64,000 nucleotides of DNA from contig NC_049997.1 of the NCBI RefSeq assembly GCF_000003815.2, forward strand, positions 8,581,158-8,645,157, given 5' to 3'. The position numbers and the translations under genes are program-made. This document shows positions 669 through 22,306 of the stretch, in pieces (within the stretch, counting starts at the first letter, position 1; the number at the start of each line of letters is the position of its first letter). Below the pieces are notes generated by a model. It had not been told where the DNA came from. It ran no database searches and was given only the letters and a program-made list of their open reading frames with translations. The stretch is from Branchiostoma floridae. Lineage: Eukaryota > Chordata > Leptocardii > Amphioxiformes > Branchiostomatidae.

Positions 669-1519
669 CTACTTGCTCAGATACATGGTCATTGGAACAG
701 CTGCTGAGATGCTGAGAACGTACATGACAACACAAAGCCTGTCCAGGACCTTAGCCAGTAAGATGTAGTCGGACACCTTGTCCTCCTTCTCTATGATCTT
801 GGTAAGCTGCTCTCTCCGCTTAGTAATCGCCATAACCAGCTTCCCCATCTCAATACTTATTGCCTCCCTGGTCATCTCCTTCACACTGCAGATCAGCTCA
901 GAAAGACCACCAGGAGGCGTTGCCGGCTGGTTGGTCCTCTCGTTGCAATCACCGGGTCCTTCGCCGTTGACCACCGCTATGTCATCGGTTTGAAATGCGA
1001 AGATAGTCAGCTCAATAGCAGTGGGGTCATTCAGGTCAGCTTCATCAATACTTGCACGCTTCTCCTTTGTTAGATCTCCCAACAGCATCATCCTTGTTGA
1101 AGAAAAAAAAATTACGTCAAAAGTTTTCCCTACCGCGCAGTACATGCATGGATAGTCATCTATTGTTCGTTATGTGTAGGTCTTGATGTTCAGATAATGC
1201 TCTTTCGGGTGTTATTTACTGAGCGAAGAAAAATCCTGGCGTTCAACGTACCAACAAAGAAACTCTGACTAATTGAATATTGGTTGAAATATGTGTTCAC
1301 AGAAACGTAGGTGGAAATAAAGCAGAGGCCGTGTAAAATGATTCCTTTAAACAGACACCAATAATGTTTGAAGGAAAAATACATACTTGGCAAGGTAATG
1401 GAGAAAAATTATCTTCGCCGACGGAGACAGGCTGCCCTCCCGGTCGTGAATAACGATGATGGCAACGGTGAAAAAGGTGAACAGACCCATCAGGCCCATG
1501 CACACGATGATCAGCGTAG
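669..1519 (-). CDS. Channel M3, cytoplasmic loop and M4 (two exons)
   Basis: Exons 1387-1519 and 669-1092 join in phase 2. The first encodes M3 ([20 protein letters not shown]) and the start of the cytoplasmic loop ([20 protein letters not shown]). The second encodes the rest of the loop, an amphipathic helix ([20 protein letters not shown]) and M4 ([18 protein letters not shown]), ending [12 protein letters not shown] then TAG. Length and layout are normal for a nicotinic-type subunit, so the channel part looks intact. No polyadenylation signal is assigned. Confidence 0.92.

Positions 1520-22306: not shown

Follow-up and report, generated by a model that had tools for sequence, protein, structure and literature searches.

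In animals, channels of the Cys-loop class are usually regarded as receptors for small molecules, with an extracellular part that consists of the ligand-binding domain (LBD) alone. A locus of the lancelet Branchiostoma floridae, in which a long series of adhesion- and immune-type modules precedes such a channel, raises the question whether the modules and the channel belong to one gene and, if so, what kind of receptor this gene could encode. The window, that is, the whole stretch of DNA analyzed here, spans 64,000 nucleotides (C19:8581158-8645157) of a genome that was searched over 513 Mb in 431 contigs.

The three minus-strand frames of positions 1-24000 were compared with Pfam, with stops taken as X, and the spliced pieces were then compared in the same manner. 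Exon models were derived by anchored exon chaining; a gene finder that used free dynamic programming and rewarded conservation was dropped, as it produced spurious exons from repeats. All modules lie on one strand, in the order CUB, sushi, MAM, CUB, sushi, CUB, sushi and four SRCR domains in the 5' part, followed in the 3' part by an LRP-type propeller with an EGF module, a C-type lectin, LDLa, a Fz-like module, a kringle, a sushi and the Cys-loop channel. Added up from the exon models, the window copy comprises about 2,300 residues in about 39 exons on the minus strand, with the following parts:

22306-669, minus strand: whole gene (Pfam and splice model)
22252..22306, minus strand: candidate first exon with an ATG, a hydrophobic leader and a phase-1 donor (score 4.1)
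20468..21173, minus strand: CUB 1, two exons, ~21173-20952 and 20580-20468 (Pfam, 94.0 bits spliced)
20109..20294, minus strand: sushi 1 (Pfam and splice model)
19099..19730, minus strand: MAM, exons 19730-19581 and 19364-19099 (Pfam, 98.5 bits)
18562..18661: assembly gap of 100 N, near the expected position of the last MAM exon
17139..18041, minus strand: CUB 2, exons 18041-17813 and 17251-17139 (Pfam and splice model)
16805..16984, minus strand: sushi 2 (Pfam and splice model)
15552..16107, minus strand: CUB 3, exons 16107-15882 and 15664-15552 (Pfam and splice model)
15010..15222, minus strand: sushi 3 (Pfam and splice-site scoring)
14175..14609, minus strand: SRCR 1, two exons (Pfam, 100.3 bits spliced)
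12709..13387, minus strand: SRCR 2, two exons (Pfam and splice-site scoring)
11378..12305, minus strand: SRCR 3, two exons (Pfam and splice-site scoring)
10544..11078, minus strand: SRCR 4, two exons (Pfam and splice-site scoring)
7768..10077, minus strand: LRP-type beta-propeller, five exons, 10077-9871, ~9540-9390, 8500-8367, 8156-7994 and 7868-7768 (Ldl_recept_b, 44.7 bits spliced; same series in paralogs)
7383..7490, minus strand: EGF-like module (FXa_inhibition/EGF, 33.8 bits, cut-off 33.4)
6486..6878, minus strand: C-type lectin domain, one exon (Lectin_C, 75.2 bits)
6080..6196, minus strand: LDLa (34.6 bits)
4891..5777, minus strand: Fz-like module, exons ~5777-5521 and 5054-4891 (Fz score below cut-off)
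4096..4376, minus strand: kringle exon, interrupted by a 100-N gap at 4169-4268 (kringle half 27.5 bits, cut-off 34.3)
3704..3892, minus strand: sushi 4, phase 1-1, the final module ahead of the channel
2170..3473, minus strand: channel LBD, exons 3473-3361, 2799-2755, 2633-2524 and 2384-2170, with a Cys-loop of the form C-x13-C (101.1 bits)
1728..2045, minus strand: exon for M1 and M2 (the pore)
1387..1519, minus strand: M3 exon
669..1092, minus strand: intracellular loop and M4, with the stop codon at 669 (Neur_chan_memb, 58.2 bits spliced)

In single frames of positions 1-24000, Pfam scores reached 95.0 and 106.9 bits for CUB, up to 120.3 bits for SRCR (summed in one frame), and 35.9, 34.7, 28.6 and 21.9 bits for sushi; the individual Neur_chan exons (22.1, 24.2 and 25.9 bits) each fell under the cut-off when unspliced. 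A complete paralogous copy of the kringle scored 66.4 bits. The last part of the MAM domain was not found in the window by Pfam and the splice model. The exon at 22306-22252 is the only leader-exon candidate that passed a custom filter applied to positions 21000-22400; its phase is 1, yet the best acceptor of the first CUB exon is in phase 2. The preliminary description of this locus had proposed a run of modules from CUB to sushi, joined mostly in phase 1, that leads into a full Cys-loop channel. This order was recovered on one strand; the best acceptor is in phase 1 in 14 of the 20 module exons tested and the best donor in 16 of 18 (the latter count omits two CUB first exons, the anchors of which were cut short); and the spliced LBD and Neur_chan_memb regions both match their families. 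The Frizzled label is weak: the spliced module in the window reached only 21.1 bits against a cut-off of 32.1. These results support reading the window gene as a Cys-loop channel that carries a large ectodomain of adhesion/immune type.

The Frizzled identity of the latter module could not be confirmed: in addition to the score below the Pfam cut-off, the module gave no match to PDB profiles up to E 10, and no Fz match was obtained at E 0.01 in the two paralog products scanned with Pfam. Eight cysteines of the module are invariant in five paralogs; the Frizzled cysteine-rich domain has ten.

The combination of modules with the channel is not confined to the window. Among the 101 matches of the channel search, 59 loci were defined by M1-M2 matches, the remaining matches being other exons, and at 57 of these 59 loci a kringle and/or a sushi exon is located upstream, on the same strand and within 30 kb, in the order channel-sushi-kringle-Fz-lectin when read outward from the channel. 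Both kringle and sushi are present at 55 loci (the window included), 41 also have the Fz-like module and 15 also the close lectin subtype; the chance expectation for kringle co-location is about 0.12 loci of 59. The two loci that have neither kringle nor sushi (C13:11621009 and C13:11568858) are 31-32% identical and give good PF02931 matches; C16:2345462 has no kringle and C13:9346322 no sushi.

For the kringle, these counts rest on the top 69 of 150 matches (E 4.9e-11 or better) minus one, C3:23574436, which was missed (68 used); for sushi/Fz, on 103 of 137 matches (the 34 omitted are weak sushi matches, E 3e-6 or worse, and the weak ones kept are mainly those on channel-bearing contigs); and for the lectin, on 16 of 150 matches (the 14 strongest, plus two that lie close to family loci on C5). 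Such omissions can only have made the co-location counts too low. Of the 11 kringle matches that had no listed channel, three (C2:14716158, C2:17515841 and C11:14762047) are followed downstream by an M3 exon, and for one (C5:4747394) an LBD1 exon was detected. Because these four later gave channel exons, 57 loci is a lower bound. The genome search with PF02931 did not list the window exons of the channel family because the LBD is divided among four exons. Many of the PF02931 matches (on C4, C5, C7, C9 and C14) cover profile positions ~45-120 in one exon, and some of these partial matches cluster, for example, at C5:24.39-24.72 Mb; they form another set of LBD exons, distinct from the first.

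A tree built from the pore exon splits 27 family sequences from 4 classical sequences of the same genome with support of 100/100. The tree comprises 31 sequences from 47 loci, after 4 that were too short and 12 repeats were dropped, and its bootstrap is not fully settled. With only four outgroup sequences of sufficient length, this topology is consistent with one origin of the channel family.

Co-location of two parts does not decide by itself between one gene and two, and gene models in lancelets often suffer from the false joining of neighbors, as in the case of a lectin-fn2 chimera refuted by ESTs, according to the relevant passage of PMC4967905. The modules and the channel could thus represent two tandem genes, for an adhesion protein and a channel, that lie on the same strand and are not spliced together. 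The paralogs speak to this alternative directly. The order SRCR-propeller-EGF-lectin-LDLa-Fz-like-kringle-sushi-channel is repeated in three paralogs on C17, and all five paralogs that were assembled (L039, L040, L041, L042 and L045) yield an in-phase exon chain without an internal stop, with the same phases at the shared exons; the channel stop is reached in four of the five, and the chain of L045 runs up to the limit of the DNA examined. One spliced paralog product matches eight Pfam families above cut-off, from Ldl_recept_b through Neur_chan_memb. The open frames in these chains are partly a matter of construction because only phase-consistent candidates were admitted as splice sites, and some individual exon edges look wrong (e.g., LBD2 in L039 and LBD3 in L040); therefore, the best-scoring site for each edge was also taken unforced. 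Under these conditions, phase 1 was found at the sushi donor in all 8 copies, in 7 of 8 at the sushi acceptor, in 7 of 9 at the LBD1 acceptor (phase 0 in the other 2), in 8 of 8 each at the donor of the second Fz-like exon and at the kringle acceptor, and in 6 of 6 at the kringle donor, for which two of the eight copies have no candidate (in the window, on account of the gap).

At the junction itself, a sushi exon lies 78-2255 bp upstream of the LBD1 exon in all 22 listed cases (the 22 that start at LBD1 among 81 search matches), and in 8 copies the length of the sushi-LBD1 intron is 98-1416 bp. One observation named in advance as speaking against a single gene was a channel transcript that begins with a signal peptide of its own downstream of position 3892; in the part of this test carried out here, no leader-like exon was detected in any of the 8 sushi-LBD1 introns or in 33 further introns between the lectin and the sushi (0 of 41). 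The filter used was a custom one with one positive control, and its scope in the paralogs begins at the lectin. Both parts are under purifying selection as judged from the sequence comparisons: dN/dS is 0.13-0.29 over 7 pairs for the core of the ectodomain and 0.13-0.38 over 9 pairs for the channel. The synonymous distances of the ectodomain and the channel are only roughly alike, as in the pair L041-L042 (0.39 vs 0.18 in the LBD), a mismatch that could stem from recombination between copies.

Taken together, the co-location at 57 of 59 loci, the conserved phases, the frames chained in all five assembled paralogs, the short introns (only 98 bp in L042) and the 41 introns without a leader-like exon led us to reject the two-gene alternative, which we regard as highly improbable despite the documented annotation errors, and to consider the fusion of ectodomain and channel very likely at the level of the family. 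For the CUB-MAM third of the window gene, no paralog support was found in the paralog DNA examined.

The window copy differs from its relatives in two places. The first Fz-like exon lacks 5 bp at its 3' end compared with six aligned paralogs, and near the 3' end of the kringle exon there is 1 extra bp compared with seven; the deletion can be bypassed in frame only through a weaker splice pair, and the insertion shifts the paralogous donor out of phase. Because of these indels, the paralogous frame is not continuous in the window copy as assembled, and the copy may be damaged or misassembled. The 1-bp indel was identified from the alignment with paralogs and does not depend on the exon chain of the window, which could not be continued past the kringle, where the gap deprives it of a donor. 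There is close to an even chance that the window copy, within an otherwise working family, has broken recently and is a pseudogene or a damaged allele from which no full-length receptor is made, as suggested by two indels that none of the aligned paralogs share. Against this, the insertion is located about 65 bp from the 100-N gap, an in-frame splice pair, albeit weaker, is available for the deletion, the channel exons are intact, and the dN/dS of the window copy with respect to L039 and L040 (0.18-0.29) falls inside the between-paralog range. Two accounts of the copy remain, misassembly at the gap and recent damage.

A chimeric assembly at 4169-4268 was considered as well and rejected: the halves of one kringle are found on both sides of the gap (with the motif RPFC...EDCDV on one), and the module order is the same in those paralogs in which the kringle is complete.

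Members of the family differ in their outer parts. Upstream of paralog L039, the SRCR array runs on along the same strand (L052, C17:6017500-6025499). A module of the F5/8-type C (galactose-binding-like) family is found between these SRCRs (Pfam, 55.1 bits); therefore, the tips differ between family members. In paralog L042, a sushi exon is located directly ahead of the lectin. Upstream of L042 and on the same strand, eight tandem coding-like units, spaced 0.9-1.1 kb apart, were observed (L048, C17:6514200-6524199); the unit has no Pfam match and is possibly a tip domain of L042.

Farther upstream in the window, among open reading frames of at least 45 amino acids in 22300-64000, there are no relatives of the modules of the window gene; apart from two matches of sequences to themselves, the comparison gave a single weak match (E 8e-4), and the frame concerned is not a module. 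Five open reading frames upstream of 22306 produced either nothing in Pfam or matches below cut-off that were taken as chance. On the opposite (plus) strand, positions 24359-24565 contain a reading frame with the sequence MADAEQ, for which Pfam gave nothing and which we take to resemble the N-terminus of a TTLL12-type protein; such a gene would bound the window gene on its 5' side. Another feature of the window is a tandem array at 45108-46077 with a 31-bp unit in 27-30 copies.

The channel portion retains the framework of its superfamily. The LBD exons of the window copy measure 113, 45, 110 and 215 bp and are followed by exons for M1-M2, M3 and M4; Neur_chan_LBD and Neur_chan_memb occur in tandem, both above cut-off, in the window channel and likewise in paralog L041. 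The Cys-loop, with two cysteines 13 residues apart and a FPxD-type motif, is found in the LBD4 exon of the window, with an equivalent in 26 LBD4 sequences. Compared with PDB, the best 60 of 77 matches are all nAChR or 5-HT3 subunits, the top match among those listed being nAChR alpha-4 (E 6.1e-34). In the alignment of M1-M2 exons, the GDR motif of the pore mouth, Leu at 9' and Asp at -1' are present in all 27 family copies, and Asp or Glu at 20' in 26 of 27, in the conventional numbering of M2 positions. The channel family thus displays the features of a cation-type pore (acidic -1', Leu 9', acidic 20').

The neurotransmitter pocket shows the opposite trend. The aromatic box of nAChR (Trp of loop B, Tyr of loops A and C, Trp of loop D) is not present in the window channel: in the alignment with alpha-4, the loop-B Trp is replaced by Ser, the loop-A Tyr by Gln and the loop-D Trp by Val, and loop C, including the Cys-Cys pair, is deleted. 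Across the copies, no Trp was found at the loop-B position in 26 LBD4 sequences and no Cys pair in the loop-C region in 27 M1-M2 sequences; fewer sequences could be compared for the short exons. In addition, the introns scanned contain no candidate exon for a signal peptide directly before the LBD, the arrangement typical of nAChR. Because the pore residues are conserved, the aromatic positions replaced and loop C deleted, the classical ligand pocket is gone and the pore is kept, and the best reading of the family is that of an expanded set of nAChR-like cation-channel subunits, probably gated or positioned by means of the fused ectodomain. A conserved Cys (in the motif AC) lies just ahead of the last LBD strand in the 27 aligned M1-M2 exons. 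In the copies aligned at that point, a second Cys is located upstream, before GEW, and the two flank the shortened loop C; they possibly form a new disulphide that closes the former pocket.

The modules, their order, the conserved phases, the chainable frames of the paralogs, the conserved pore and the lost pocket are seen directly in the sequence. Beyond these observations, we infer that the exons are joined in a single transcript and that the ectodomain controls the channel. It appears reasonably probable that each gene of the family encodes an nAChR-like cation-type subunit that is combined with a sushi-kringle(-Fz-like) stalk and a variable tip and is controlled through this ectodomain. 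Under such a scheme, the near-constant sushi-kringle stalk would link the variable tip to the top of the LBD, and the tip, which in the window consists of CUB, MAM, SRCR, LRP propeller, C-type lectin and LDLa modules, would supply specificity. The stalk could relay an event of binding or anchoring at the tip to the upper face of the LBD, as force or ordering that reaches the gate, and so shift gating; alternatively, the stalk and tip might hold the channel at a particular site. Partner subunits would be needed to bind any classical transmitter. The ectodomain may thus gate the channel; sensing of microbes by it is possible, the types of modules being suggestive.

In a bolder version of this scheme, which we put forward tentatively and consider somewhat unlikely, the family would constitute an ionotropic recognition repertoire of at least 57 loci, in which an nAChR-type ancestor lost its pocket, gained the kringle-sushi stalk once and later received exchangeable lectin, SRCR, CUB and propeller tips that convert the binding of microbes, food or neighboring cells into cation flux. 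Such a repertoire would act within milliseconds, with no need for a second messenger.

The same architecture can be accounted for by clustering in cis, with the ectodomain serving as a built-in scaffold that anchors heteropentamers at a contact site and gating performed by a transmitter bound to partner subunits. We see this as a plausible minority view: the module types of the scaffold proteins LEV-9, LEV-10 and Hig/Hasp are found here in cis, and the lost transmitter pocket suits a non-binding, structural subunit, but at least 57 loci with differing tips seem many for a single synaptic anchor, and lectin, SRCR and propeller tips suit recognition equally well. A chemosensory role, with an LBD retooled for hydrophobic or other environmental ligands that the ectodomain merely captures or concentrates, seems to us unlikely. 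The chemotactile receptors of octopus and squid are, like Alpo4, devoid of the common ligand motifs and do not respond to acetylcholine, as described in the respective section of PMC10338036. The lancelet channel family also has none of those motifs and is expanded as well. However, loop C is the lid of the pocket used by the cephalopod chemotactile receptors, and its deletion here removes this lid; furthermore, the stalk is approximately as conserved as the channel. Control of the channel through a stalk and a variable tip remains our preferred reading.

If it holds, exon shuffling would have made a receptor of modular build, for recognition or anchoring, out of a channel of the synapse, and the target that such channels detect or hold would no longer be a neurotransmitter. 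With a conserved, splicing-compatible and selected association at dozens of loci, together with a dismantled pocket, the family is a concrete and testable case and offers a direct test of whether large domains, rather than transmitters, can work the gates of pentameric ligand-gated ion channels (pLGICs). No description of a kringle-sushi channel family was found among the open-licence papers listed, an absence that is weak because only open-licence papers, without supplementary files, were covered; the nearest are PMC4967905 and PMC4795631. The former (Banyai and Patthy 2016) lists, with a caution about annotation errors, a B. belcheri/B. floridae orthologue pair, 269420_PRF0, that has a novel Neur_chan_memb architecture and is apparently restricted to Branchiostoma. 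This pair is possibly a gene of the same kind, and the passage concerned gives no modules, family or mechanism for it. According to the latter, by Jaiteh et al., the association of pLGICs with other domains is evidenced only at the genome level.

Judged from its sequence, the family is an extreme variant of the pLGICs, in which the hallmarks of the superfamily are present, the nAChR pocket is missing and no leader exon was detected in front of the LBD. It shares with nAChR and 5-HT3 subunits the Cys-loop, the LBD exon series, the four transmembrane segments, and the acidic -1' ring and 9' Leu in M2, and differs from them in that no leader exon was found before the LBD, the pocket residues are lost, loop C is deleted and the ectodomain is long and modular. 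Relatives of nAChR without the usual ligand motifs have precedents in the chemotactile receptors and Alpo4, according to the same section of PMC10338036. A precedent for the addition of an extra N-terminal domain to a pLGIC is the bacterial DeCLIC; unlike DeCLIC, the lancelet family carries many exon-shuffled modules of animal type and comprises dozens of members.

CUB, LDLa and sushi modules are known to act on ionotropic receptors in LEV-9/LEV-10, SOL-1/2, NETO and Hig/Hasp (PMC9083331, in the part devoted to these proteins). LEV-9 contains eight CCP/sushi domains and LEV-10 five CUB domains and LDLa; clustering of the levamisole AChR needs both proteins, with the LDLa being dispensable, and in the fly the sushi proteins Hig and Hasp are located at cholinergic synapses (PMC9083331, same part). 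All these proteins act in trans, whereas in the lancelet family the modules apparently share the polypeptide of the channel. A parallel comes from the same animal group: the Adhesion GPCRs of amphioxus have N-termini with Kringle, Lectin C-type, SRCR, LDLa and CUB domains, and kringle is combined with somatomedin B in a ten-gene expansion, as reported in the passages of PMC2246102 on these receptors. There, the same types of modules were placed on a membrane receptor that is a seven-transmembrane protein and not a channel.
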